64,000 bases of DNA from Siphlonurus alternatus (Eukaryota > Arthropoda > Insecta > Ephemeroptera > Siphlonuridae): positions 11,877,628 through 11,941,627 of the forward strand of contig OX463783.1 of NCBI GenBank assembly GCA_949825025.1. The letters run 5' to 3'. The notes under the pieces are model-generated. The model ran no database searches, was not told where the DNA came from, and saw only the letters and a program-made list of their open reading frames with translations. A program made the translations under genes and the position numbers. Each line of letters starts with the position of its first letter. Position 1 is the stretch's first letter. Below, in pieces: positions 4,191 to 63,891 of the stretch.

Positions 4191-6179
4191 CAGTATCTTT
4201 CTTATTATTTTCTGTTGATTTTGGGTTCAGTAAATTGTACACTATTTTTCATATAATACTGTACATTTAGAAATTATTTTATAAATGAGACAAAAGTGCA
4301 ATTAAATTTAATTGCTTTCGTTGAAAAAAAAAAAATGATAAAATAATTTGCTCAAATTTTATCCACTGAAACATTCTGTACCTAATTTTAAATATAGCTG
4401 CTACTTTTGCTTCTAAGCTTTTAAAAAGTATCTTGTCTCAAATATTATATAATTGTGAAATAACATAATATTGTAAAATAAATAAATTTGGCGATACAAT
4501 GCAGTAAAAATTAAAATTTACAAACCAAAACAATGTTGCATGTTTTAATTTATCAAAAATAAATTTCAGAAATAAAAATGTATAGCAAACGAAAAGACTA
4601 ACATGCAAAGAAAATATCCCTACTTATAATCTCGTTTTAAACCCTTACAAACTAATACAATTGAAGTATATCAATCAATGATAAAAAATTGTAAAAAAAA
4701 AAATTAAGCATGAGAAAAAAGAAGTAAGGATTTATAGTGAATTTTTTTAAACTATCAAATATCAGGTATCAATACAATAGCTGTTCGTTACCTGCATCGT
4801 TATATAGTGGTGGTCTTATATATATAGGGTGCATCAATGTATTGAAAAAACACTTTTATATTAAACCATAGCAACATTTATAATGAATAGACAAGAATAT
4901 TGGCATGTACACCCCTACTCAAAAATATCTAGATTCCTTCCCTTATTTGCAAAGATATGAAGAATTTAGAAATGAAATTCGAAAGTAGTCTGCACCCCTC
5001 TGAAATTAATTGAGTCTCTTTTATAAGAAGTGTCATATTGTTAAAGAATTTAGAAACTTATGTCTATGGGTGTACTTATAAAGTTATAGAAAAGTAGATA
5101 GCAAAAATCTATTTATTTACAAATATAATAGTTTACAAAAATGATTAAATGTTATTTTTCTCTCACCAACGGAATTTTCTTTTATTATTAATATTAATGA
5201 TAAATTATTAACAAAATATAATTAATCCACACCACCACGTATATAATAAAAAAAGGAACTATTATGTTTAGTATAAAGAATATTTTTTTTATGTATACCA
5301 TAAATTTTAAATCTTACCTAATTTTGAAGATTTATTAAAGAAATTAAAAATATAATAATAATAATCCTTTAAAAAAAAAAGCAAAAGCATACTACTAAAA
5401 TTTATTGTATAGTATAGAACGTTAAAGAAAATAGCTTTTGTAAGATGCTTCTCTTCTTGAAAATTTCTTATACCATTTTTTTTTCTCTTCTCTCTTTCTC
5501 ATCTTTTCTTAAGAGATCTTTGGAGGTTATTATTATTATTATTTTTCCACCCTAAACCACCCCCAAGCAGTTTTCCTTCTTTTCTTTTCTACTAAGAAGA
5601 GAAATTTTTCTTTTCACTGAGCTTAACATAAATCCAAAGCAAACGTCACCTACGAAATAGCTCAACGATTTTAATGAACTATAATAGAAAAAAAAGAGGT
5701 TCTTTCTTATATTATTATTATTATATAAGATGCATAAAAATCTTGCACATGACTTACGCTATTGTATATTATACTCTTGATAAAAGAATAAAATATATAT
5801 TTTTTTAAATAATAAAAATGTATTGCGTATTATAATGAAAATATAGGGTTGCGCAAGATTTTTTTAATTTCAAATCTTAGGGTTTGCATTACCGTTTTAC
5901 TATAATGAAACTACTCATAATTAAAGTAACAAATACCCTAACGAATATTCATTAAATTTTGTAAGATATTTTATTTTTCCAAATATTTCTTTTAATAAAA
6001 TAATTTATGCAACTGGGTTCTTTATTTTAATTATTATATAATAATATTTTTAAAACATTATCTTTCAAATTATGACAGTAATTTTGTTTCAATTAATTAA
6101 AATTTCATGCAAAAAAGATTGAAATTTTGTCGATGAGTCCGTGTTTATTACTGCGAATTGATTTAAGTTTAAACATATT
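4191..6179. other. AT-rich, no gene seen
   Basis: Contains a pyrimidine-rich stretch (5450-5600). No feature recognised. Confidence 0.6.
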
Positions 6180-6357
6180 GGGGGGCATTCACAAAGCACT
6201 TTAACCCCCACTTTAGCCTCAATTTTTATCCCTGGTGCTAAACATGGTACTAAACCAGGGGCTAACCATGTTAAGCTCATAGTTTAGCAACATGTTTAGC
6301 ACCAGGGATAAAAATTGAGGCTAAAGTGGGGGTTAAAGTGCTTCGTGAATGTCCCCC
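6180..6357. mobile_element. Palindromic MITE, family B copy 1
   Basis: The left arm GGGGGCATTCACAAAGCACT and onward is inverted almost perfectly, ending GTGAATGTCCCCC. The arms are about 70 bp, with repeated GCTAAACATG-type motifs around a short loop. A second copy lies at 55.7 kb. Confidence 0.85.
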
Positions 6358-7189
6358 ATTGTTTTTAACCTTTGTTCAAGTTATCATAAAAGCAAGTAAA
6401 TGATTGTTGTTCACTTAATTTGCAGTTAAGATAATTCTTTTCCTCACCCCCCTTGCTATTTTTAAAAGAGGACAAAGTAAAAACAAGAATATATTTTTTA
6501 CCTTGAATTCTGTGAAATTGTAATTGAATATTTAATAAACTAAAAAAGTTTTTTTATGTTTTTACGTCATCGTATGTAATAATTATTGATGAACAGCTGT
6601 ACAAACTACTGTATGTTGTTATAGAAAATATTATATATTAACAAAAAAGGTATATATATAAAAAGAAAAAAAAAATAGTGCTATTATTTTTAATGTAATA
6701 CAGACGTAAGGATTAAGAATTGAAACCTTATAAAATTTGTCTTTGACATTTTTTTTTTATCATTCTTCTTCATAAGAGTTTCACCTTTATAATATGTATG
6801 GCATTCATTTAACGCGAGAAACCTTAGCTAATCACAAATCAATAAACGTAAAATATATAAAAGCAAATTTTTTTTATGTATACTTGAAAATTTTATAGAA
6901 GTACAGTCAAAAACACATAAAAAAGAATTTATACAAAAGAAAAGTTACGATTAGCAGTTAGAGCACTTCAAAATTTGACGATTATAATACACTTTTCAAT
7001 AAGCCCTTAATTAGTATCATAACACCTGAAAGGTAACCAAAATTGCACAGTTTTTAACATAAATATTATTTTAAAATTTAGATAGAAAAAAAGAAATATT
7101 GTTGGAAAATTGTAATTAAAAAATTAAAGGTAAGTACGCCTCTGGACTCCACGAACTTACTCCTGCTTTGTTTTTAAGCGTTGTATACC
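6358..7189. other. AT-rich, no gene seen
   Basis: No repeats or coding signals beyond short homopolymers. Confidence 0.6.
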
Positions 7190-7505: not shown

Positions 7506-7746
7506 CAATCTTAAAAAAAATTGGCTGAATTTTGACATCTTATAATCAGTATATTTTTAACGCCTTAAATCACGATTTTTCAGGTGTTTCGTAGTCAATA
7601 TTCAGTAGTCAGCATATACTGTCAGTATATAGCTTATACTGACTACTGAAAATGCGCAACGAAACACCTGAAAAAAGCATGATTTAAGGCGTTAAAAATG
7701 CACTGATTATAAGATGTCAAAATTCAGCCAAATTTTTTTAAGATTG
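7506..7746. mobile_element. 241-bp near-perfect palindromic MITE
   Basis: The left arm begins CAATCTTAAAAAAAATTGGC and the right arm ends AATTTTTTTAAGATTG. Arms exceed 100 bp with few mismatches, including GTGTTTCGTAGTCA against TGCGCAACGAAACACC. The loop is near 7625. Confidence 0.85.
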
Positions 7747-10232
7747 ACAGTATATTTTCTATATACAATTACATAATATATAATATCTTTGCGACATTTC
7801 TATATAATATACTGTATATAAGCCAGACATCATCATATTATTTTTATATTGATTTTTATTATAACACAATGACAAATCAAGATTATATTTTCTTTCATTT
7901 TCTCTATATATACAAAAAGTTAAAGCTTGGATTTAGTCTGTCGTACCAAATTCTATTGTTCATTTTGTTGGAAGAAGAAAAAAAAAGAAAATCGTCACAT
8001 CATCATTGACGCCTGCTTCGATATAACAACAACCATTTATTAACAACTTATATAGTTTTATAAATTATAGAATAACACCGGAAACTAAAGTTCCAATTCA
8101 CCTTTTTTACTCTGAAAATTTGCAAAAAAGTACTTGTAATTTTAAGTTAAAGTATGGATAAAAAAAAACAGAAACCCATAACTTCCGGTTACTTCCAGTA
8201 ATAATTTTGTAATAATAAAACTATATATTTGATGATCATATATAAGGAGAGTAAAATACACATCATACATTAGGAACAATAAGATTGATACAATAGTACA
8301 AAGTTCAAAATATAACAATAGGAAATAATATATATAAAAATCTATACATTAAATTTATTATAAAGATATCATTTTTGTAATATGATAGATTACTTTTCGG
8401 TTGAAGAAATATTGTAGTGTAATATTATATACAAAAGTTAATTATAATAAGGTTCAAATTGTATTTATTTTAATATGAAAATCAGCTTTAAAGAATATAA
8501 ATCACATTTTGATGATGAGGGGTGTTTTCGAAATCATTGCTCATGAGTTTTAGTTGATTAAAATAGTGAAGGGTATATTTCTATATCAATAAAATTTTAG
8601 AAATACATTTTCTTTTTAAAAAGCAAGTTATGAACTTAAAAAAAAAATGTAAATGTATTTGAATGAATTTATTAAAAAAAATCACTGACAATTTTTATGG
8701 TTGTCATGAATATTGTTTCAACCTGATTTTTTTTTGTTATTTCATTGTTGAACAACAATATTGTCAATATTTATCATATATTTGCATCCGATTGATCATT
8801 AAAAATGAAGCTATAAAATTATTTAAACAATACCTCATTTCTAAGTAATTGGTATCATTGGCCTTCTATATATTTTTATTGTAAAAAAAAAACATATAAT
8901 TATATTTAATGACGTGTGTTTTACATCACAATATTTTACTGCGACTCAGGAAAAATTAAATTGTTTCAAATAAATGATAGAATTTTCTATGGGAGGTACT
9001 TGTTTCATTGAAATTTGAGTTTATGTCTTAAATAATGAATGATCTCTATACATTTTTTTAATAGAAATTGCATTCTTGTGACGCTATGAAATTAACTTTT
9101 GATATATTTTTAGTTAAATTGATGAAATTTTCAAGTGATTCCATATATATGATTTTCAACAGAACCTTGAAATCTTGAAAAAATTATAATGATGGTAATC
9201 AAGTTTTTGCTAGTATGGCCTATTATTGACTTGAATAATATTGATTTGAAATAGTTCTGCAACATAATATACAAATATTAATATAACCACAGTATATTAT
9301 ATAAAAAAAATAGCTCGTTTGCAATAAATGACCTTTTTTTTTACAGTATTGTTTTTTTTTCTGATGCATTCCAGCAATATAATAATTTATTCAAGTTAAA
9401 ATTTTTTTATATAAAACAAAACCCCATGCACAAATCCCAGATGTACATAACAAATCATTTTGTGAATTAAAAATAAAAATCTACATTGTTTTATGGTTTT
9501 TATTATAAAAAAAAACTTCACTACTTATATCCATAATTCACCGCAAGTTTTAAAAAATATCTTTAGTCAACGTAAATTTGATTTTAATCTATAATACAAA
9601 ATATATATATTTTTTTTTCTCTCTCTCTAACAAATTTATGTTAGTTCAGATTTTTACTAGATTGGCATACAGATCACGAGTTTTCTAATTAGTTTTATGT
9701 TATCCAAAAAGCTTATACTGTATAACCAATTTTACAATCTAGCTTTGGTTTTAGCATTTTCTCTTAATTAAGCTGCAAATCACAATTCTAATCGGTCGCT
9801 TGTTAGTCTTCTTTTTTTTTTTTTTTTATCATACTACTTCGTTAATATTAATGAGCTTTCAGGCACGGTTTATAATATACGTTGTTATATATTTAGATAA
9901 AGGTTACGTTACAATGTGTATATGGCTATATAAGAGAATATTTTATTTTTATTACAATTTTATAGATACCCTCAGACCAGTATAATATGTTTTCTAAACT
10001 CGATTTTTCTCTTATGTTAATATGTGCATGCAAAAAAAGAAAATTCGAAAAGATATACTGCAGGTAACTAAAAATTTCAAATTTATGATGAAATCATGCA
10101 AGTACTCATTTTATTTAAAAATCCATTTTAAGATATTTGATCAGTATTTGGGTTGAGCAGCTTATAGTAACAAATCATATAATACAGTATATATAAATAG
10201 ACAACCTGGCATGAAATTTTATTTATTACATT
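7747..10232. other. AT-rich, no gene seen
   Basis: Long featureless stretch; a possible weak shared segment with 20.2 kb (ACTTCCGGTT and CCCATAACTT) is too short to call. Confidence 0.6.
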
Positions 10233-17432: not shown

Positions 17433-17742
17433 GAGTATTGACCTAATTTTTTTTATTGCAGAAATGGATAGAGCGTGCAAAGTTATGCTACCCTGATTTT
17501 TTTCAGATTTTTTAGAGCCCGGGAACTATTTTTAAAAAATTATTGAAAGTTATTTTTGTGAAGTCACGAGACGCCGCTCCTTAAGAAAAAGATAGGACTT
17601 GTCGCCGCGTGACGTCACAAAAAGGACTTTCAATAATTGTTTAAAAATACTTTCGGGGCTCTAAAAAATCTGAAAAAAATCAGGGTAGCATAACTTTGCA
17701 CGCTCTATCCATTTCTGCAATAAAAAAATTGAGGACAATACT
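17433..17742. mobile_element. Foldback MITE, family A copy 2
   Basis: Inverted arms run from GAGTATTG (17433) to CAATACTC (17742). A second, stronger boundary is TTGCAGAAATGGATAGAG (17456) to CTCTATCCATTTCTGCAA (17720), flanked by TA. The inner sequence GGGAACTATTTTTAAAAAAT matches copy 1 at 1.3 kb. The centre contains TGACGTCA. Confidence 0.85.
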
Positions 17743-20700
17743 CCACTGCGGAGAAAAAAACTAAATAGATTTGTTGTTGTTAAAAACGATATACACACAA
17801 GTTTAAAAGTTGAAATTTACAATCGCATGCATAGAATGTACTGTACTGTATATGCACTTGGTGCATGCTTATAATATAGCCATTCATGATTTATATATCA
17901 ATTTTGACAGATATCAAGTTTTGCAAACAATATATCGTGCCATAATGTCTATATCGTCTCATACTAACTGCAATACTGTTTTTTTTACATTCACGTAATA
18001 GTTTTAATGCATTTATTTTGCACTGATATAATAACAAAATATTATTAATGTGACTCGCATATTTAATAATTTTTATTAAATTAAAGAATTTTCTTTTTGA
18101 TCAAAAGAATATTTATACATAAAGATTTCTTTTTTCGTTCTTATTCTTTTATTTCAAGCTGGTAGTTAATTCAATTATAATATAATGTCGTAACCTCATT
18201 CTACTTTTTTATATTATTCTAATTTAATTTTCATTTTATCTAATCTAATTTTATTCTTTACTATATTCTCACACCCATATATTATAATATATATATTTTT
18301 TTATAAATCAAAGTTAAAAAATATTTAATTATCTAATTGTAAGTTACGTAAGCATATAAAATTAAAATTAAGTAGTGAGGGTTGTAAAAAAATAAATAAA
18401 TAATTGAGTAAGAAAAATATAGTTAGATCAAGACACGTTATAAGTACACTGTATAAAAAGATTGTTATGGAAAATGTGTCTTGATTTTTGAAGTTTAACT
18501 ATAAAAATATTGAAGCCGATATTAATACTTATTATTTACTGTTTAAATGGAATTACGCTCTCTTACTATACGGAATGAACTTAAAGTCTTTAAATTCATA
18601 ATCAAGCCTTTATATATTGATATTATAGAGCAAAATTTACATACACAATAAAAATTGTGCCTAAATATGATTAAAAAAATTATTACAAATAATTTGAATT
18701 TTTTCTTAATTAATAGCAAGAATAATTACCAGTAAAGATAAACAATTTATCTATTACATGGTGATATGTATAATATACTGCAGTCCAGAGTATTGGAAAC
18801 TCTTAAAACATCTCTTAACCTTTAAACAACCAAAATACATTAATTATATAAATAATTAAATCATACACAATCTCATGTTTTTTTTATACTATTTCCCATG
18901 CAATACTGTATGTTCACAATGGATACTTTTCTCACTATATGTCATCAGCCTAACTGAATGATACTAACTGATTACTAAGAAACTTGGTTATTTTTCTTGA
19001 TAACACATAAATCGCACCCTATATGAGAACAGCTGCAGATATAAACTTAAAAATTGTTTACATAATTTTTTCTCAGTGTAAAAAGTTTGTCATTACTTGA
19101 AAGTGACGGCGTCCGCGGGTTGCCAAAGTGTTTTGCCAAATGAGTCACAACAGTTACCTCCCCTCGGTAACTTCTCTTTATTACCTACCAAGACTTGGTA
19201 ATTAACGCTGTCACTGGCCCGTCAAAGTAAAAATGAAAGAATTATAAACTTAAGTCTTGAAATAAATATATTCAACCATATGATGTTGAGTCATACTCTT
19301 TTATTATTATTACCAGGATGTGTTTATTTAAATTAAGTGAAACTCATATGATTTATATGTTAATTATTTAATTAATTTCTTAATATGGACATTTTTTACT
19401 AAAAAAATAAGAAAAAAAAAAATGAAAAGTTGAAGTTAAACAGATGTATAAACTTTGTGCTTTTAAATTTTGATTAATTTTATGTTGAATCTTTTTATTT
19501 GAATTCTGATAACATCAATTAATGTTTGCTATTGTTTTAAAAGTTAATTAAAATTGAAATCATATTATAGGATATATGCAGTACGTACAATGCTAATTTA
19601 CTAAATTTAATATTATAAAATATCAACATGTTATATGAAGAGTAAAATTAATTCTTAATTGCTTAAAATAAATACAATTCTTACTGTTGATCGTGAAAAC
19701 TGAAAACTTTTTAGCATAAGGAGCGTTTACATAAATTGAAGTTTAGTTCTACATTTTGAATTATTCTTATTCATTTTTCAATGGTCATGTTTTTTTTTAT
19801 TTAAACATCCCCCTATATTTCTGTATAATTTATATAAATGTGATATAAAGATGATCCATCAAACTTTACATTTTAAGATATTTAATCATTGAGAAAAATA
19901 TAAACATTGGTCCACTCCTATATCACATTTTTTTACATCTGATTAAACTTGAACCGTCTTTTAAAAAAGTAATATTATTCTATATCAAAGATGCTGGAGA
20001 ACAATGAATGCCTTATAAGCTTTTATTGTGCAGTGTCATTGCTCCAACTATAGCTGAAAATTCATTATATACTTGGTCTTTATTAAAATTAATATCTGAA
20101 TTTATAGATTTATAATAATTTCCATACATGGTTTCAATATATTCCATACTCAGCTTTAAAAAAATTGTAGTTCCATGTCAAAACTTGTTAAGTATGGAGA
20201 GAAACATTGCACTTCCGGTTTCTTTTATAGGGAATGCAAGATAAATAAAAGTGTATATAACTATACGGATCACAGCCCATAACTTTTGGCTATGTTCCAA
20301 TGTATATATTTCTTATTTCCACTCTCTGTCACTACGGTTCTCCCACTAGATGTGTTTTCTTCTTTTGCAAGCTTCACTAAACCAAATTGTCATTACAGTC
20401 AAGTGTTATTATTATTCTTATTATCCTAGTAAGGTGCATGACTCTTACGTCATATGTAATAATATTCAAATGTATGTACAATAATATTTTTTTAAAATAT
20501 TATACATATCCAGTTCAATATCAATAAACCATAATATATATAGTACTTTATCGTGAAAATCTTAGTGGAAATGGTCAGTTTGGGTTTTGAGATTTTGAGT
20601 TTCATAATGCTCTATAATGTCGTTGGACTTTATAATATTACCATTTTATTGAAGAATATTTTCCCTGAACTTATGTATAATAATTCCGATAAAACATTGT

Positions 20701-21160: not shown

Positions 21161-21495
21161 TAATGGACAACATACATGAAAAAATGTTATTGCAGAAATG
21201 AATAGAGGGTGCCAAATTATGCTACTCTGAATTTTTTTAGATTTTTTTGAGACCCGGAACTATTTTTTAATAATTATTGAAAGTCCTGTGATTTCAGTTG
21301 GCACCCCTGAGTTCTTAATAAAAAGGATGGAGACTGGACGCCTATTGACGCCTCCAGGGGCCTTGGCCGCACTTTCAATAATTATTTAAAAAATAGTTCT
21401 GGGTCTCAAAAAAATGTGAAAAAATTCAGATTAGCATTATTTGGTACCCTCTATTCATTTCTGCAATAAAAAATTTTCATTGTATGTTGTCCATT
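21161..21495. mobile_element. Foldback MITE, family A copy 3
   Basis: Outer inverted ends are ATGGACAACATAC (left) and GTATGTTGTCCAT (right). Inside them the TTATTGCAGAAATGAATAGA arm matches copy 2, and GAACTATTTTTTAATAATTA matches copies 1 and 2. A TA precedes the left end. The palindrome centre is more diverged than in copy 1. Confidence 0.82.
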
Positions 21496-23821: not shown

Positions 23822-24186
23822 CATCGTTTTGTTTCAAAAGACTTACATGGATTACATATAATTTTATTATTTAACATTTTAAAGTGATTTTAATTCATAC
23901 TTCATTTTTTTGTAAATCTGAGTATTCATCATCCAATAAATGCATTAACTTAATTTCTCAATTTTTGTTTTGTAATTATAAAAAAGTGTTCCCGTCCTTA
24001 ATAATTTGTAATTTTAATTAACTTATTAGCACTCGATGATTATTTTAAAGTATGATATCAAATACTTATTTTTAATACAAATTTCTTGTGAATTATGTGT
24101 GTGATCATGTGATCAATACATGACAATAAGTAGTAGTAATAAAAAAAACATTATTTTTAACATATTTAGCTCTTTTAAGTGAAAAT

Positions 24187-24436
24187 AATTTTTTGCGCAA
24201 AGATTCGGTTTTAAATTTTACATACTTATTTGTTACTAAATTTCTAACACTGATTTGCAAAGGTGAGGTCAAACTTAAAGTCCGGATTACTTTGTTGATT
24301 TTTATTGTTGCATCAATCGAAATCAACAAAGTTAATCCGGACTTAAAGTTTGACCTCATCTTTGCATATAGGCGGTAGATATTTAGTAACAATCAAAAGT
24401 ATGTAAAATTTAAAAGCCTAAGGTATGCAAAAAATT
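24187..24436. mobile_element. 250-bp near-perfect palindromic MITE
   Basis: Arms of about 110 bp: AATTTTTTGCGCAAAGATTC inwards on the left, ending in GGTATGCAAAAAATT on the right. GGTCAAACTTAAAGTCCGGA is inverted as TCCGGACTTAAAGTTTGACC. The loop is near 24305. Nested at the right side of the 2.3-kb element. Confidence 0.8.
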
Positions 24437-24756
24437 ACCAACATTTAGTTAGTAAAATCCTGCAGTAAAAGGAAGAATAATTTTACTAGCACTGCCAGTT
24501 AAATTTTACCAAGTTACTGACCTTCTATTTTACCAACATGCCGTAAAATTTTACTACGCAACGCATTTTTAACTTCTACATCATCAATGGTGTAATATTT
24601 TACTGCAAAAGTTAGTAAATTTTAGCTACTTTTCAGTATACAAAATTTAGCAAACTCAAATATTAAGTTTTTACACAGCTACTGTCTTAGTGAGATTCGA
24701 CCCGCCTTTTGTTAGTAAAATCTTACTAACCGTTGGCTAAATTTTTTGTCCGTGTA

Positions 24757-32689: not shown

Positions 32690-33245
32690 TAAACACTATA
32701 AATTCAAAATTCAAATTCAAATTCAAATTTTTTTATTCGTCAATTTCCACACATACAAATACAAACATTAAAAGAAATGCAAGCACTTTGAATGAGAAGG
32801 TTTGACACGTCGACACAACAAAATATTATTATTAGAATTTACATTGTAAATAAGCCTCCATCTGTAGAAACAACAATCAGTTAACAACAATCTCACAGAT
32901 TTTTTAAAATTACTATAATTTGAAACTTGTTTGATACATATAGGTAGCTTATTATACAATCTAATACACATTGCGAGGGGACCTTTGTTACAAAGTTCGA
33001 GCCTGCATATTGAAGGAGTTATTGTTAAATTTTTGTTCCTAGTATGATAGTTGTAATTTTTTGGTACATTAAAATATTCTTCATATTGTTTCTTAACAAA
33101 ACATACACATTCTAGGATAAACTGGCAAGGTAGGGGTAACATTCCTTCTTCTGTAAATTTTGTAACACAAGTTTCAAACCTTTTAAGGTTAAATATAGTT
33201 CGAATTGCTTTTTTTTGCAAACATATGAATGCGATTCTCAAAAGA
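32690..33245 (-). mobile_element. 5'-truncated LINE (non-LTR retrotransposon) 3' end
   Basis: A 157-codon minus-strand ORF (33241-32768) has the sequence type found at the C-terminal end of non-LTR retrotransposon ORF2 after the reverse transcriptase: LQKKAIRTIFNL, then LPLPCQFILECVCFVKK, then HTRNKN, then GPLAMCIRLYNKLP. The catalytic domain is missing; the element is cut just before LQKKAIR. Its 3' end carries an AATTTG-type short tandem repeat (about 32701-32731), a common LINE tail. Clade assignment (Jockey/CR1-like) is tentative. Confidence 0.75.
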
Positions 33246-34925
33246 AGATGATATTAATCAGGTTTCTCGCTAATATTATAACCACGATTAGCGTCTGCCT
33301 AAAATTTAATGAGAGCAATCGCATGAGAAACTGAAATATCTTCATCAATTTATGAATGTGCCAAATTATATTTTGCATAATTATATTTGTTTATTATCTC
33401 TCAACTGCAAGTGTCGACCATACTTTATGTATGGTCGAAAAATCGAAATCGTAAACTTCAATATCCGCCTTTTTTACTATTTAATTAATACAAATTGATA
33501 TGCACATTTTTTACATTAAAAACATTAAAGTATATTTTTATCATTATTATATGTCAAGTTATAGTGTGTCAGATGTAAGTAGTTATAAGGTATGGAGGGT
33601 GTAAGGAGAGAGAAAGAATAAGAAAATAATAAAAACGCGAGGGTGGGTGTCTAATAATGAAAAGACCGCGCGCTCTTACGAGAGAGAATTTCTTCAAGCG
33701 TCGTCGTCGGCTGTCTCTGAGTAAAAGAAAACGTGGAACTACTCCCCATGTCTTTAAGGCAAAATTTCCATAAGAATAGCTTCTATAGATTTGGTGGACT
33801 TGGAGAAGAAGCTCACATAGAGGCCTTTTTTTTTTTCTCCTTCTTCGTCTTTCTTTCTAGTTCTCTAATACTAAAAATCCCCTTTACTTATATATCTGCC
33901 AGTAAGCAATACATATTATAAAAAAGAGAAGTAGGAATTCTTTTTCTTTTTTTTTTTTTTTTTACTATTAATGTGATATGTCTTTAATATAATTTGATTT
34001 TTAATTAAAAATTATAAATACAGAAGATTTAAATAGTCATAAATTATTTGTATATTTTGAAATTCCTACATTTTTTTAAAGTATCCTTACATTTATGCAA
34101 TTTTATTGCTTCAAAATTATGCAGGTTGCCTATCTTAAATTTTGCAGGCGTCTAAAAAAGTCTGTTATTTTTTTTTTTTTTTTTTTACAATATTGAAATT
34201 TTATATCCGTTGAATATATATTTTTATAAACAAAATATATTTTATATAACACGCCGTTTTGTTTTCACTATATTTGTGTATATATATTTTTTTTAATATT
34301 AAATATTTTTATATACATAAGATTTATTTTATGTCTGTACGTATATATATATATTTTTTTTATTTTAATCTACATAGTCTAGAAAAAAAGGCGACATCTT
34401 ATAACTCTAGAAAGGTTCCCTACGTCACCCCCTTGAAGAGGGGGTTGATTTTTTTTCTCCCTCTTTTTTACCCCCACATGCTTGCCCGGCACTTGGCTAG
34501 CAAGCGACACAACATATCGACCCGTTCAAGCTATATAATATGAGTATGAGAGAGAGGATAAAAAAAAAACCTTGCATGTATTCCAATTCTTTAATCCGTC
34601 TGATCGGTATTTTTTAACCTTCATCACTTATAATTTAGTATATTGTTAGCACAGGTGTAATTGTCTATATATATAATGCATAAAAAAATTGCAATTTTCT
34701 TGGAATGTATATAAGTTATTGTATAACCTTTAAATGTAATTGATGATTTCTAAGAAATTGTGCATTTTTGATGAAGCACATTGGTGAACATTACAGTTTA
34801 ATTGATAATTGTGTACTATGAGCATTGTGTGCTTTTCTTCAGTATGTTGTTGTTATTAAAGTATTTGCCTTTATGCGATTTAAGTAAGTTTTGATGATTT
34901 TTCAAATTTATTATTTTTTTTTTAA
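33246..34925. other. AT-rich with a CG-rich patch
   Basis: A patch at 33625-33740 containing GACCGCGCGCTC and GCGTCGTCGTCGG is promoter-like in composition, but no gene follows. Inverted GTGTCGACCATA...TATGGTCGA at 33411-33436 is a short hairpin. Confidence 0.5.
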
Positions 34926-35792: not shown

Positions 35793-36231
35793 CCGCGGTT
35801 AGTGGCAGATTAAGGGCATTGGGTGTAGCACCGGTAGTTGGCAGCACTGACGTATCTTCACCATGTTAATTTTTTATCCTTGCTCCTCGGAGTAATTTTT
35901 ATGTTAGAGCTAATCTGATTGCTGTAGTATCAAGATAATTAGTAGCCCAAGTGCACAATTTGGCTAAATAGAGCCTGATTTAAAGAAAAGTATTTTTTTT
36001 ATATTTTAGAAAAATGCATGTAAATTTAAAAAATTACTAAAAAATACTTTTCTTTAAATCAGGCTTTATTTAGCCAAATTGTGCACTTGGGCTACTAATT
36101 ATCTTGATACTACAGCAATCAGCTTAGCTCTAGCATAAAAATTACTCCGAGGAGCAATGATCAAAAATTAACATGGTGAAGATACGTCAGTGTTGCCAAC
36201 TACCGGTGCTACACCCAATGCCCTTAACCGC
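35793..36231. mobile_element. 439-bp foldback element with arms of about 200 bp
   Basis: The left arm contains TTAAGGGCATTGGGTGTAGC, and the right arm ends ACACCCAATGCCCTTAACCG. Arms match over about 200 bp with very few differences around a loop of about 35-40 bp near 36010. The left end has a small extra segment (GTGGCAGAT) after CGCGGTTA. No coding capacity. If transcribed it would form a long hairpin RNA. Confidence 0.85.
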
Positions 36232-57392: not shown

Positions 57393-59507
57393 AGACAGGG
57401 AGACTTCAGATCCATTTCCTTAATTGATGCTCGGCTAAACACGGTGCGATTAATCCGTAGGGACCGAGCCAATGCTTTGCTGCTGCTCTCTTCTCTATAC
57501 TATACACCCCCACCCCCTAAAAAAAAACTCCCTTATATAGTAAGCTTAAAGTAAAATCTATAGTAAATTTATGTCGATCTCTTAATCTTAATTTCACATA
57601 TATCTTCAAATGTAATTATAATAAATAAAACTTTTAAACTAATACTATAAATACTTTGGTATATTAACTAAAAGAGAGTTAAAAGTACTGGAGATATTTA
57701 CAAAATCGTAATTTTGTATCGTAGATAAAGTGTTGAGGTTTCGACTATGCAAGTCAAGTTATATGAGACTCTTCTTTATCGTCTTATTTTCTCTCATTCG
57801 GACCTTTTATATTTATATAAGATTCTTCGCTATAGAACATTAAATGTTTTTTCCAGTCTCTGCATGTAGTTTTATATCGAGTCTAGCATTAATTACTTTT
57901 ACTGCATTCATTATTTAGTTAGCTATACATATACTAGTCGGATTGTTTATGCTAGATTTTTAAATTTCACCTTTTATATTTTGTCCAATGTATTTTAGAT
58001 CTCTCAATTTCTAATTACTATAATGTTATACTTCAGTGTAAAGGGTACTATATGATACTTAAACTTCCGGCTCATCGAAGATATTGTATGTAGCATTCAT
58101 TTAGTTGTGACTGAGGGAACCATGGAAACCTCAGAATGGATGGTCGGAAATGAAAGAGGATGCATTTAAATAGCGGAATTTGATATTATGTATTTCTATA
58201 TTGTATAGGCACTTTTTTCATTATAAATTCGTTCTGCCTGCGTTTGTACTTAAGAGAGAAATATTCATTTATTTTTTCATGATATTGTACAAAGTATTAA
58301 TATAACAATAAGCTCTTTTATTACAATTAAAAAAAAATGTAAAGCAAAGAGAAAGGAGAGAACATTTTTAATACCTTGTAAAAACAATAAGGTGTATGTT
58401 TAAATTATAATTTAAAAATAAAGTCAAGTAGTTAAAAAAAGCGAATATTTACTGATGTTTTTACATTTTCATTAAAGAAAAAGCTTTTCTCACTTTTTAT
58501 TTTAATTTTGTGGTGTTACGCAAAGTGTTTTAATAGTAATATTAAAAAAAAAGAGAACATTTTATATAAGCGTCAAGTAATTAACACGGTTAATTAATGA
58601 GAAAATTTCCTTCCTTGCTTTTACAAAAGCTTTTTCTCTCTCCCCTTCTTTGCTTTTCAATGTCTTTTCTTACATCTTTTTAACCCTTTTAGTAAATTTC
58701 TCTCTCCAGCTTCTGTTTAATGAAGTCAAGCCTTCATTGAGCTGTTTTACCACCACGAGACACCAGAAAGCCAAGAATAAGGAGGGAGGGAGAGAATAAA
58801 TGAAGATTCCAGATTCCTTACAATAAAGGATTTCCCCCCCCCCCCCTTTTCCTTTTCTCTTTAAAGCAATATTCATCGTCTCATTGTCTTACAACATCTT
58901 GTAAGATTTCTCATAATAATTTAAACTCTCCCTTCTATTTAATACCGTGCTAAAAAAAAAAGGGTAGTTATAAAAAAATAATATTATGAAAGAAGCAAAA
59001 AACCCATTATGGTTCGTTGACTCAATTAAAAAGATGGGGTTAAATGTCTACCATGATTATAATCACTTATTATTAAAACCATTTTTTTTTTATTAAAGAT
59101 TATATAGCTTCCTTAAAGTTAATTTCATTTGCATATAAAAAAAATTTACATTGTTTTTTTTTTTCTTCTTCCTTTATTATAATTCAGTGTTAATTTGTCG
59201 CAAATTACTTTACTTTTAATTAAGTAATAATAATGAAGATGATGCTATCAGATTATTAAAGTAGAGGTAACGACATTAGTAGGCATGGCATCTAGAAAAT
59301 AAAAAAAATATGTATTTCATTAAATGATGTTTTCCTTTCCTCTTTTTGGATTTTTCTAGAAACGTATATCACATTACTTACGGTTTTAGATGCAACTATT
59401 ATTTATAAATATACTTTATTATACCCACTTTGACTAGCTAGCTTAAAATGCTACGATTTAATGAAAACTATGGCAACACTGGAAGACATTTTTTTTGCTC
59501 GCTCAAG
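57390..59507. other. AT-rich, no gene seen (except the SINE core at 58.1 kb)
   Basis: The upstream flank of the transposase-exonuclease gene. I searched it by eye for a terminal inverted repeat partner and found none. Confidence 0.5.
58106..58150 (-). repeat. SINE-core fragment
   Basis: GACTGAGGGAACCATGGAAA then CCTCAGAATGGATGGTCGG is a well-preserved reverse-complement core copy. Confidence 0.55.
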
Positions 59508-59582: not shown

Positions 59583-62500
59583 ATGCCTGGAAAAGGCGTC
59601 AAAGGTGAACCCTTTCCTAATTCAGGACAAGCACCGAGACGGCATGGACGTTTTGTTAAAACGTCAATGTATGGTAGGATCAGTAAGCTATGCAAGGGTA
59701 GACCAGTTAAGACTCAAGCTATAAATGCAGGGCATGAAGGTATTATAACTGGAAGGCGGGTTGTAGAACTACCTTACCTAGGCAGTCAACTCTTTTGCAA
59801 GTTCTGTCAGTCTAACTTATTTTTAGTAGACATCAAAGAAGAAATTCAACATGGCCTAGCTTGTACATTGGGCATTCAATGTCGTAACTGCGAGTTACGA
59901 AATTATGTTTATACATGTAAGAAAGCTCCACTGCAAACCAGAAAGAATACTTTTGAAATCAACATGAAAGTTGCAATGGGTACGTATAATACTCAAAGTC
60001 AATGCTATAATATATACTTATTTTGTCAAAAACTATTATAGCCATGTATATAATTAACTTGATCTATAATTATTATAAGTTACGTAGTCATAAACATGAT
60101 GCTATTTAATACTGCAAGACCTGATGATGCTGACGGATGCCAATGGATAATTTTCCTTTCCAGCAATGATTGATGCAGGTGTGGGCCCAACGCATATGAA
60201 TGCTCTACTTTCGTCCATTAATGTACCTACACTTTCTACCCCACTTCTAAGGAGACATGAAAAGATGGTAGCCGAGGGTTTAGAAAGAGCGGCAAAAAAA
60301 AGTTGTCTAGAAGCAGCAAAACTTGAGGGAGCACTTACCAGGTATACATATTATTATAATTAATAATTCTACAAAGAGATAATTCAGGATGCGTAAAACT
60401 GGCAATTTAAAATATTATGTAGGTTGCCTACGAGCTTTAACTTTTCTTTACAGTACAGTAAAATCTTGTAATTACGTCGAGTCAAAAGGGACCCAGGAAA
60501 TTAGGTTTACCTTATACTGAGTACTACCTTATATCAAGTTTTTCCTATACCTGCAATGTTAATTATTTTTTACGGGACCTTTACTCCTTTACTCAATATT
60601 GAGTTTTTACCTAAAAACAAGTTGCGTAATAACGAGTTTTTACTGTCTTATAAGCTCTTTATCAAAAAAAAAAAAAAAAAAGAAATAATAATTAAACATG
60701 AAACCATTATAGTACTATTTCTTTTATTATTTTTATTTTGCAGAGCTGCGAAAGCTGCGGCAGCCATTGCTGCGCAGTGCGATCACACTGTCACTGAAGA
60801 TACACTCTCAACCGCTGAAGAACCTCAGTCGTTGGTGTCTGGCGACGAGCCTCTCCTCAGCGCTGTCGCCCCTCAGACGCCCATGATAGACAAGGAGATC
60901 TCTCAGTCGTTGGTCTCTGGCGACGAGCCTCTCCTCAGCGCTGTCGCCCCTCAGTCGCCCATGATAGACAATGATGAGGAGATCTCTCAGTCGTTGGTCT
61001 CTGGCGACGAGCCTCTCCTCAGCGCTGTCGCCCCTCAGTCGCCCATGATAGACAACTACAAGGAGAATCTACCTTATCAGGATGAAATGGATATAACCAT
61101 TTCTCTTATGGAAGACGAATGGTGTAGCAATGATATAACCATTCCTGATGAAAGGTGTGAACCCATATTGTAAGTTGTTGACCATTCAGTCAGACCTGAA
61201 ATGTAAAGTATATCAAATTAATTATTAAAAAAAAAAAAAAAAAAGAAAGAAAGAGAGAGAGGAAAAATACTGATTGTAAAATATTAGTGAAGGCTTCAGT
61301 TATTCAGTTACCAGAAAGGATTTGTTTTTAGAGTTCCTCTTTTTTCAAACACATGCATAATTACAGGAACACGACCTCAGTCCGACTGGCGGGGAATACA
61401 GCATCCATCACAACGGACTTACCTCAGGCTGCCTCGCCAAGCTTTAGACAGCCCATGACCTCTACACCAAGCAGCAAGGTCCACGTCCTCATGTCCCCAA
61501 GGTATGATAGACTGCAATAGTACCTACAGAAAAAAATAAAAATTAGACACAAAAATTTACCTTGACATAATATAATTTAAATATACTGTATACTAATTAA
61601 AATTCAAGAAACATACAGTTAAACAGATTTTAGTTTACGGGTGAATGTTCGCACAGACTAGACAGCGTGGATTCTGCAGGGGGGCGTGACTAGAGTGTGC
61701 CTCGGATTATCTCGGATATAATTGGTTGCGAATTTTCGCAGCCGTAAACTAGGATCTGTTTAACTCTACAATAGCTTTTTATACTATGTAGTATAATGAT
61801 GAAATTATTATTATCTGCCCACATTTTTTTTTTAATTACGCGAAACTATTTAAAACATATTATAACAGTGTACTTTTTTATTGCAGAATTGCCTTACCAA
61901 CCTCACCAACTGAAATTACTGGATCAGCAGACATGGGCTGGCAGAAACGAGGGAATGGGAGGAAGTACGATAGTTTGACTGGAAATTCTTCTCTAATAGG
62001 AGCTCTGAGTAGCAAAGTGTTGGCAACCAAGACCATGATTAAGTCTTGTAAGCAGTGCAAGATTGTTGGTGGATGGTGCAACAAAAAGAACTGTAAGCGA
62101 AACTGGACTGGTAGCGCAAAGTCCATGGAAGCTGCCGCAGCGGTCAGTATGCTACGCAGTGAAACTCTTAAGGAAGCTAACGTTAAAATCACTGTGCTGG
62201 TAGGAGATGAAGACTCGAGCACCGCAGCTGCCATTAGAGAAGAATTTGGAGATGAATGTGAGAGAGCCTCGGATCTCATGCACACCCAGAAGAATTTGCG
62301 TAGTGACTTGTACCTTGTAAAGGCAATGCATCCACTACTGGATGTTGCAGCTATTACTTACTTGGTAGCTACAGTAGGAACTGTTGTTAAAAAGAATAAA
62401 GGAAATGCAGATAAATTATTAGTTTCTATGAAAAATATACCTGAACATGCGTTTAACAACCATAAAAACTGTGGCACATGGTGCACATATCAACAAGCTC

Positions 62501-63891
62501 CAGAGTTATACAGGAATAAATATTTGACAAAAAGTCTTGGCGAGGTTGGGTGTGAACTTTACAAGGAAGTTTGTCGTGTGTTTGAAAAGGTGATTAGGAG
62601 TGTTCCGCGGCTTGCACCATGTGGCTCGACACAGTGCAACGAGTCATTTAACAACACCGTGGCTAGCAAAGCAGTAAAAAGCAGGCACTACGGAGACACA
62701 GAATCCCTGGTCAATAGGGTGAATGCTGCTACATTGCAGTGGAATGAAGGCGTTGGTTACCCAAGCCTTGTGTTCAAAGAGCTGAGCTTGTCACCAGGTA
62801 ATCTAAAATATAAGATGGCCTTGAACAGGAAAAGGAAAGCAGAAGCAGAACGTCGAAAACACCCCGACTATAAGCGTAGAAGGAAACTGAATTATCTGTC
62901 ACGTAATTCAAAGACTGCAAGACAAGAGCGATCAGAAGGAGAAACTTATCGCTCTGGCATGGGTCTTGATCCACCAAACTTAGAGAAAACTGTTGTACAA
63001 ACCAAGAAAAAAACAAAACCAAAGTTATGGAAACCACCTGCTTTATCAACATTGCCTCGAGCTTCCTCAAACAACCCATGTTATGTATACATTGATCTTG
63101 AAACCTCTGGAAGATGTCACAAGTTTTCTGAAATCCTTCAGATTGCTGCAATTTCTCAAGAGCATGGCCAGTTCAGTACCTACGTTAGACCTACAAGGTA
63201 CATCTCCGCAGCAGCTTCAAACGCTAACCAGCTTACATACAAGTATGGTAATCTTCGCTACAAGAACTCGGTTGTAGCAACAGTATCACTGAAAGAAGCC
63301 CTGTGCAAATTTATGGAGTTCCTTAAAAAGCACAGTGAAGTTGTGTTGTTGGCTCACAATGCCAGCTTTGACCTAAGGTTCCTTGCACAAAATCTTACAA
63401 AACAAAACATGATTGGAGATTTTCAAACCACAGTGATTGGATTGGTGGATACTCTGGGACTGTTTCGGAAAACTTTCCCCAAGAAAAATAATCCAGGCCT
63501 AGCAAATCATACTCAAGAAACACTATCTAAGTTTCTCTTGGGCAAGGACTATACATTTGAGGCTCACAACGCAATAGCAGATGTAGATACTCTTAAACTT
63601 ATGACAGAAAAATTAAAACTGTCGAGCAGAGATCTCATGCTCAATAGCTTCACATCGAAAGCTTACTTTGAAAGGTTTGAGAAGAGCGAACGAGCCCAGC
63701 TCATGGAAGTTCTCGCAGACCACGGACTCGACAGGGCCGGAATGCTCAACCTGGTGAAGGGAGGCTGGTCGTTGGAGAAACTGCGGACGTTGTGCAAGGA
63801 AGGCACCGAAGCCAACACCGTGAACCTGCTGGGAAACATGATTAAGTGTCATGATACTATTGCCAAAATCCATAAATTCTTGATAGCCTAA
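59583..63891 (+). CDS. Five-exon gene: Mutator-like DDE transposase fused to a DEDDh 3'-5' exonuclease (1,046 aa)
   Basis: Exons at 59583-59979, 60164-60341, 60744-61169, 61367-61501 and 61887-63891 join in frame across GT-AG introns of 184, 402, 197 and 385 nt; the split codons restore VAMAMIDAG, GALTRAAK, ILNTTS and SPRIALP. Domains in order: zinc ribbon (C72, C75, C100, C103), helical segment (about 133-205), low-complexity linker with three repeats (220-295), Mutator-like RNase H-fold transposase core (about 380-680; D394 in DMGWQKRG, D486/D488 in VGDEDSST, E631 in CNESFNN), basic NLS-like stretch (about 692-713), DEDDh exonuclease (about 777-956) and a helical tail. The expected role is DNA cleavage/transposition in the nucleus coupled to trimming of 3' ends; the coupling is inference. 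The start chosen is the Met of MPGKGVKG, after a CG-rich promoter-like segment; an upstream in-frame Met at 59448 would add 45 residues. Base composition is clearly richer in GC than the flanks. No frameshift or stop is visible. It could be an autonomous transposon or a domesticated gene. Confidence 0.88.
59796..59891 (+). other. Zinc-ribbon-like CxxC...CxxC module of the transposase
   Basis: Encoded in exon 1, residues 72-103: CKFC, then 24 residues, then CRNC. Members of this Mutator-like family often begin with such a ribbon, which probably binds DNA or stabilises the N-terminal domain. All four cysteines are present. Confidence 0.6.
60456..60645. mobile_element. Pogo/Tigger-like MITE in intron 2
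   Basis: The left end reads CAGTAAAATCTTGTAATTAC after a TA (60454-60455), and the right end reads GTAATAACGAGTTTTTACTG. The CAGTA(A)AA...CTCGTTAT-type ends and the internal GGGACC motif are typical of pogo/Tigger (Tc1/mariner superfamily) MITEs. The right flank is TC, so the TA duplication is only half preserved. Too short (190 bp) to encode anything. Confidence 0.6.
60826..61056 (+). repeat. Three in-frame 78-84-bp coding tandem repeats in exon 3
   Basis: The unit encodes QSLVSGDEPLLSAVAPQ followed by S/TPMID. Copies start at 60826, 60904 and 60988 (periods 78 and 84 nt; residues 220-241, 246-267 and 274-295). The copies are nearly identical at nucleotide level, so the expansion is recent. 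Each unit contains an S/T-P dipeptide in a Q(S/T)PM context, and the second and third also have an SQ dipeptide. The block lies between the N-terminal DNA-binding part and the catalytic core, probably as a flexible acidic linker. No function is known to me. Confidence 0.85.
61616..61766. mobile_element. 151-bp TA-flanked MITE in intron 4
   Basis: About 25-bp inverted ends: left CAGTTAAACAGATTTTAGTT and right AACTAGGATCTGTTTAACTC, with few mismatches. TA dinucleotides flank it at 61614-61615 and 61767-61768, which suits a Tc1/mariner-type insertion. It sits between exons 4 and 5 and does not touch the splice signals. Confidence 0.75.
61887..62962 (+). other. Mutator-like transposase catalytic core (exon 5, N-terminal part)
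   Basis: Family signatures in order: DMGWQKRGNGR with the first catalytic Asp (D394); a Cys cluster C433, C436, C443, C448; GSAKSMEAAAAV; VGDEDSST with the second acid (D486 or D488); HKNCGTWC (H571, C574, C578), typical of the family's insertion; and GSTQCNESFNN with E631, followed by ASKAVKSRHYG. This order and wording match the Mutator-like transposase domain (Pfam PF20700 as I recall it) of many invertebrate genomes. All three acidic residues of a DDE triad appear to be present. Which of D486 and D488 is catalytic is not certain from sequence. Confidence 0.8.
63079..63888 (+). other. DEDDh exonuclease domain and PLEX9-like C-terminal tail
   Basis: ExoI is YVYIDLETSG (D782, E784); ExoII is LAHNASFDLRFL (D874); ExoIII is AHNAIADVDTL (H939-x4-D944). 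All five DEDDh residues are therefore intact, indicating a metal-dependent 3'-5' exonuclease of the DnaQ/TREX-like class. About 90 residues follow, with the pattern FERFEKSERAQLMEVLADHG and GWSLEKLRTLCKEG. This tail resembles what follows the exonuclease in PML exon 9 and fish PLEX9 proteins; the comparison is from memory. It is fused in frame to the transposase within a single exon. Confidence 0.8.

Follow-up and report, generated by a model that had tools for sequence, protein, structure and literature searches.

Introduction

KolobokD, published in 2022 by Kojima and Bao, is the lineage of Kolobok transposons that carries a DEDDh exonuclease (PMC9587614, section 11). According to the KolobokD passages of that paper, the lineage is known from arthropods, molluscs and cnidarians, its exonuclease is similar to Exuperantia, TREX and ERI1, and this enzyme is proposed by the authors to break down DNA intermediates from the 3' end in the course of transposition (PMC9587614). 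Here we describe an element that begins near the end of a 64,000-nucleotide stretch of the Siphlonurus alternatus genome (contig OX463783.1, positions 11,877,628 to 11,941,627 of the forward strand), hereafter the window. The gene that it carries had been read in an original prediction as an intact fusion of a Mutator-like transposase with a DEDDh exonuclease, and whether such an architecture had been described was left open. The fusion is indeed intact and is kept in relatives, and this architecture has already been published as KolobokD (PMC9587614, KolobokD passages); the Mutator label was not retained since the TTAA target site and the RR..YY termini are those of Kolobok. We are highly confident that the element is an autonomous, apparently intact DNA transposon of the KolobokD type, this confidence applying to its identity and not to the step served by its exonuclease. 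The element is thus a further, well-preserved member of an already published lineage. Less charted than the architecture is a possible and testable link between its exonuclease and that of PML/Plex9.

Results

Gene structure and coding frame

The gene and the 5' end of the element were annotated as follows (L numbers denote loci of the genome search described below).

59256..59259, unstranded: TTAA target site, 5' side; the 3' TTAA lies beyond the window at L009:7390-7393
59260..59274, + strand: 5' terminal inverted repeat AGTAGAGGTAACGAC; the element spans 59260 to the equivalent of 65261 (6,002 bp)
59583..59979, + strand: exon 1, N-terminal part of PF20700
60164..60341, + strand: exon 2, N-terminal region to which relatives align
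60744..61169, + strand: exon 3, linker containing three tandem repeats; keeps the frame, without support from homology
61367..61501, + strand: exon 4, linker; keeps the frame, with next to no support from homology
61887..63891, + strand: exon 5, transposase core, exonuclease, C-terminal helical domain and stop codon
61906..62643, + strand: DDE transposase core to E631, with a Cys finger (433-448), DxxH (508-511) and an HHCC finger (566-578); model and fold matches
63085..63591, + strand: DEDDh 3'-5' exonuclease domain, residues 779-947; model pLDDT 93.4, matches to Plex9.1 and Exuperantia
63655..63888, + strand: C-terminal helical (SAM-like) domain, residues 969-1046; helices in the predicted model

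Re-splicing of the five in-phase exons reproduced the continuous frame of 1,046 residues that had been proposed, with GT..AG borders at all four introns. The claim of complete DDE and DEDDh sets also held, as D394, D486, D488, E631, D782, E784, D874, H939 and D944 were each located in the spliced protein where the original prediction had placed them, and both nuclease folds map, as it had said, to a single exon, exon 5. The domain search that it had proposed matched the spliced protein to PF20700 (E 1.2e-61, in two stretches) and to RNase_T (1.5e-12). A placement of the N-terminal part outside transposases, which the original prediction had named as evidence against itself, did not occur, exon 1 carrying the N-terminal part of PF20700.

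Exons 1, 2 and 5 are backed by homology: the N-terminal part and the core both align in 4/4 relatives compared, each predicted as one protein, and an upstream match to the N-terminal part was found at five of seven other genome loci (1.5 kb of flank each). Residues 193-369 gave no alignment in the four relatives. The frame is kept by 24 splice combinations, so that frame continuity alone is insufficient to fix exons 3 and 4. Within exon 3, the three tandem repeats (window 60824-61066) are each about 26 residues long, with a DNA identity of about 93%.

Element ends and target site

Because the window stops 109 bases past the stop codon, the 3' end could not be resolved within it, and the ends were supplied by a search of the whole source genome (455.7 Mb, 102 contigs), which returned 15 match rows grouped into 12 places. 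The window copy ends with GTTATCTCTACT followed by TTAA, 1,370 bases past the stop codon and 1,261 bp outside the window. It thus has the form 5'-AGTAGAG...CTCTACT-3' with TTAA on both sides, as expected of Kolobok; its inverted ends are imperfect, the first 20 bases matching the reversed 3' end at 15/20 positions. The motif TTAARGTAGAG occurs once in the window, for a chance expectation of 0.14. In three copies with equal scores the 5' end of the family consists of TTAA then AGTAGAGTGAGTGAC, and the flanks differ. The three near-identical copies measure 7,925, 6,793 and 7,971 bp, and the copies at L013 (5,084 bp) and L016 (6,937 bp) have TTAA on both sides, with inverted ends agreeing at 11/20 and 14/20 positions. 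Over the eight loci examined, TTAA with AGTAGAG-type ends was found at both ends in six (the window and five others), and the pattern search gave one usable end at L015 and none at L014. The termini follow the 5'-RR..YY-3' rule of Kolobok, being AG...CT in five copies (the window's, the one at L013 and the three near-identical ones) and GG...CC in L016.

Further [AG]GTAGAG or CTCTAC[CT] ends adjoining TTAA, which do not bound the gene-bearing elements, are present at L012:247, L015:1195, L020:1637 and 2841, and L024:8884 and 9290; they are probably short non-autonomous relatives.

Kolobok rather than Mutator

An alignment of 18 rows, window included, was used to analyze the catalytic residues. 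D486, D488, D508, H511 and E631, which make up a DDE core with the C/DxxH signature, are kept in 18/18 rows, and the first D in all 13 rows having a residue there. The zinc finger between the second D and the last E is likewise conserved (H566 in 18/18 rows, H571 in 17/18, C574 and C578 in 17/17 rows with a residue). In the exonuclease, D874, H939 and D944 are kept in 17/18 rows, D782 in 15/15 and E784 in 16/16 rows with a residue; the exception, P0017, lacks the RNase_T match found in 17/18 rows. Combined, the TTAA sites and RR..YY termini, with the DxxH signature and the zinc finger, indicate that the element is a Kolobok, and the DEDDh exonuclease encoded together with the transposase agrees with KolobokD.

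That the element is a genuine Mutator (MuDR/MULE) which acquired an exonuclease is very unlikely. Such a reading would account for the Pfam label of PF20700 ('Mutator-like transposase'), for the C/DxxH signature, which is common to MuDR and Kolobok, and for the best Foldseek match of the transposase, the ISCth4 transposase, which belongs to a bacterial family often compared with MuDR. Against it, the finger between the second D and E of the window copy is lacking in MuDR, and the spliced protein had no match at E 0.01 to the MULE-domain model that Pfam includes. In addition, the target site is a 4-bp TTAA, compared to the duplications of 8-11 bp given for MULE groups in passages of a survey (PMC6446971). 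Membership of Mutator was rejected on the target site and termini, the duplication of 8-11 bp being absent. Two MULE surveys, one being PMC6446971, mention 'exonuclease' 0 times. piggyBac, which uses TTAA sites with termini other than RR..YY, was ruled out by the AG..CT termini.

Relatives and copies of the element

Relatives were searched with residues 380-1046 as the query, scoring only the best 7,992 candidates, and 19 proteins were found. As the original prediction had suggested looking for, the same architecture recurs in other genomes: PF20700 and PF00929 are both present in 15 of these 19 proteins, including those of Ischnura, Diprion, Cotesia, Eretmocerus and Mytilus. In scans of viral contigs with exon 5 and query A1, and of genome contigs with query A1, no viral or prokaryotic carrier was confirmed (one to six short patterns were used, so that distant carriers may escape).

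At eight of the 12 places in the source genome, the best loci, a single open frame covers the core and the exonuclease, and no DDE or DEDDh residue has been lost; in one of the eight, L007, the first finger is partly missing. Three copies at different places share 98.1-99.5% identity over stretches of 4.2-6.4 kb, which indicates that the family moved recently. A direct duplication of about 0.84 kb lies at L010:7226-8059 and 8367-9204 and also in L012; it was not found in the third near-identical copy, L011.

One locus, L020:4447-5658 (minus strand; C9, about 2.87 Mb), has an open frame of 404 codons that encodes the whole exonuclease with an intact DEDDh set; its identity to the L002 copy is 59%. 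It may represent domestication in progress or a chance deletion. This copy, from which most of the transposase core is missing, speaks for the alternative that transposase and exonuclease are distinct genes in the window, the latter transcribed alone from exon 5, as does the fact that exon 5 by itself is open over 699 codons, stop to stop. Nevertheless, core and exonuclease both lie in exon 5 without a stop, and 8/8 best loci are likewise one open frame, which leaves two genes a highly improbable arrangement.

An origin by domestication, in which a transposon of this type became an immobile host gene, would fit the imperfect inverted ends of the window copy and the fact that it is alone in its subfamily in this genome, the next copies being at 47% protein identity. 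However, the window copy retains its TTAA sites and ends, all of which a domesticated gene need not keep, and sister subfamilies moved recently; we therefore regard domestication as improbable, and an autonomous KolobokD-type element remains the preferred assignment.

Several points weigh against this assignment. Firstly, the joining of five exons is predicted splicing, exons 3 and 4 are multiples of three so that either can be skipped without loss of frame, and the nuclease activities are deduced from sequence. Secondly, the family includes damaged members: stops and an interruption disrupt a copy on C9, and most of the transposase core is gone from L020. Thirdly, the assignment to KolobokD was made by comparison with the published description. 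In that description, as far as its KolobokD passages go, the finger past the first D is a hardly varying CCHC, compared to CCCC in the window copy (PMC9587614); in our alignment three positions of this finger are conserved in 17/17 rows and the remaining ligand, a Cys in the window copy, is Cys in 5/16 rows.

The last two of the 12 places, L021 (4433-6640) and L022 (2821-5439), both on the minus strand, hold distant transposases (25-26% identity) in which PF20700 is followed by a YqaJ-like (lambda-type) nuclease, in open frames of 736 and 873 codons. These are probably members of KolobokE.

Joint inheritance and putative role of the exonuclease

Trees of the transposase and of the exonuclease, with 20 rows each, have 11 of 17 splits in common, and the nine transposase splits with good support are free of conflict with any well-supported split of the exonuclease tree. 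This absence of conflict between well-supported branches indicates that the two domains travelled together. Their long joint inheritance, together with the intactness of the exonuclease, is the strongest evidence presented here that the exonuclease is important to the element. Within a single genome, Kolobok transposases occur with two nucleases of unrelated kinds, which also favours a real job for DNA digestion in transposition. In a putative mechanism, the transposase would bind the AGTAGAG ends and cut at TTAA. We tentatively propose, with somewhat less than even confidence, that the tethered 3'-5' exonuclease then trims or removes 3' DNA ends resulting from excision or integration, whether at the site of excision or on the transposon itself. 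As the main alternative, its substrate might be stray transposon DNA, or DNA whose presence would alert the cell.

Kinship of the exonuclease with PML/Plex9

The exonuclease domain qualifies for the PML/Plex9 exonuclease family, and among solved structures Plex9-type chains are the nearest to it by sequence. Its structure model matched Plex9.1 and Exuperantia. Structural alignment was largely confined to model residues 2-214, and the likeness of the C-terminal helical domain therefore rests on sequence matches of relatives: the PML C-terminal domain (PF25244, PML_C) was matched by 9/18 family rows at E 0.01 (9.4e-25 for Mytilus P0012), the window protein having no match to PF25244 at E 0.1. 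Such proteins may have been among those from which the Pfam PML_C model was made. PML is mentioned 0 times in the main text of the KolobokD paper (PMC9587614), and no link between KolobokD and PML was found in the parts of the literature searched, with the main Plex9 paper (10.1093/nar/gkad152) outside that search. A protein of Acanthoscelides obtectus (P0031, 315 aa) combines the exonuclease with a PML_C-like domain and has no transposase match; it is possibly a host gene of transposon origin.

The direction of capture was analyzed in an exonuclease tree of 65 rows. These included P0001-P0016 from the 19 relatives; 18 family rows and 5 bacterial rows from a second set of 31; 22 of 119 further proteins, 20 of them from named fishes; two PDB pieces; and an Exuperantia piece. 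A first reduced tree left out Exuperantia, P0048, P0013 and P0016, and a second also left out P0041, P0038, P0031 and P0014 and added five genome copies. In the 65-row tree, the 24 fish-type rows form one group (99/95) inside the transposon-borne rows. The fish Plex/PML group joins P0041 and the transposase-linked P0006, P0011, P0012, P0013 and P0016 with a support of 86/84; the corresponding grouping received 85/87 in the first reduced tree and only 52/89 in the second. Closest to the fish group stands P0041 (97/92), which has no transposase match and a long branch. The Exuperantia branch measures 3.1 changes per column, and its placement is for that reason untrustworthy.

A move of the exonuclease from transposon to host (PML/Plex9) would be favoured, since the transposon-borne form occurs across both insects and mussels, and L020 is a case in which the exonuclease has remained without the transposase. 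Against a move in that direction, a single clade of transposon rows was not rejected in either the first (p 0.29) or the second (p 0.215) reduced tree. The reverse capture, of a host gene by the transposon, is possible.

Other elements in the window

A near-perfect palindrome of 418 bp at window 35810-36227 (388/418 positions self-complementary), which starts with TTAAGGGCATT and finishes with AATGCCCTTAA, is a short TTAA element with RR..YY ends whose terminal sequence is different from that of the window transposon. Intron 4 contains another short TTAA-bounded element (61619-61763), with inverted ends that match at 20/22 positions, TTAA included. Six self-complementary stretches (1265-1592, 6165-6372, 7506-7746, 17433-17743, 21162-21495 and 24186-24437), with arms 78-89% alike, are probably hairpin-type short transposons. 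On the minus strand, an open frame of 161 residues at 32768-33253 looks like the tail of a non-LTR reverse transcriptase.

Discussion

With the window element, KolobokD gains a genome in which element ends are defined, copies have moved recently and the role of a transposon-borne 3' exonuclease becomes directly testable. The kinship of this exonuclease with the PML/Plex9 domain hints, at the sequence level, at a possible origin of that domain; if it is true that the vertebrate PML/Plex9 exonuclease descends from such elements, the origin of an odd domain of a tumour suppressor would be answered.

The host proteins closest to the exonuclease differ from the window protein in several ways. The Plex9.1 and PML-like exonucleases of fishes carry no transposase, unlike the window protein, and most of those listed are about 190-240 aa, too short to include the C-terminal domain as well. 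Exuperantia, an insect protein with EXO-like and SAM-like domains, is termed a pseudo-nuclease, whereas transposon copies keep DEDDh. TREX1 and TREX2 are weaker by sequence (E 4.1e-10 and worse), and the bacterial PolC-type exonuclease 2p1j is a better match (8e-15). KolobokE resembles the window copy in having a nuclease downstream of a Kolobok transposase, as described in the passages on that lineage (PMC9587614), and differs in that this nuclease is lambda-type rather than DEDDh (PMC9587614). The C-terminal helical domain is unmentioned in the KolobokD passages of the same paper (PMC9587614), which describe for KolobokD the features also found in the window copy: a DDE transposase with the C/DxxH signature, a finger between the second D and E, and a DEDDh exonuclease (PMC9587614).

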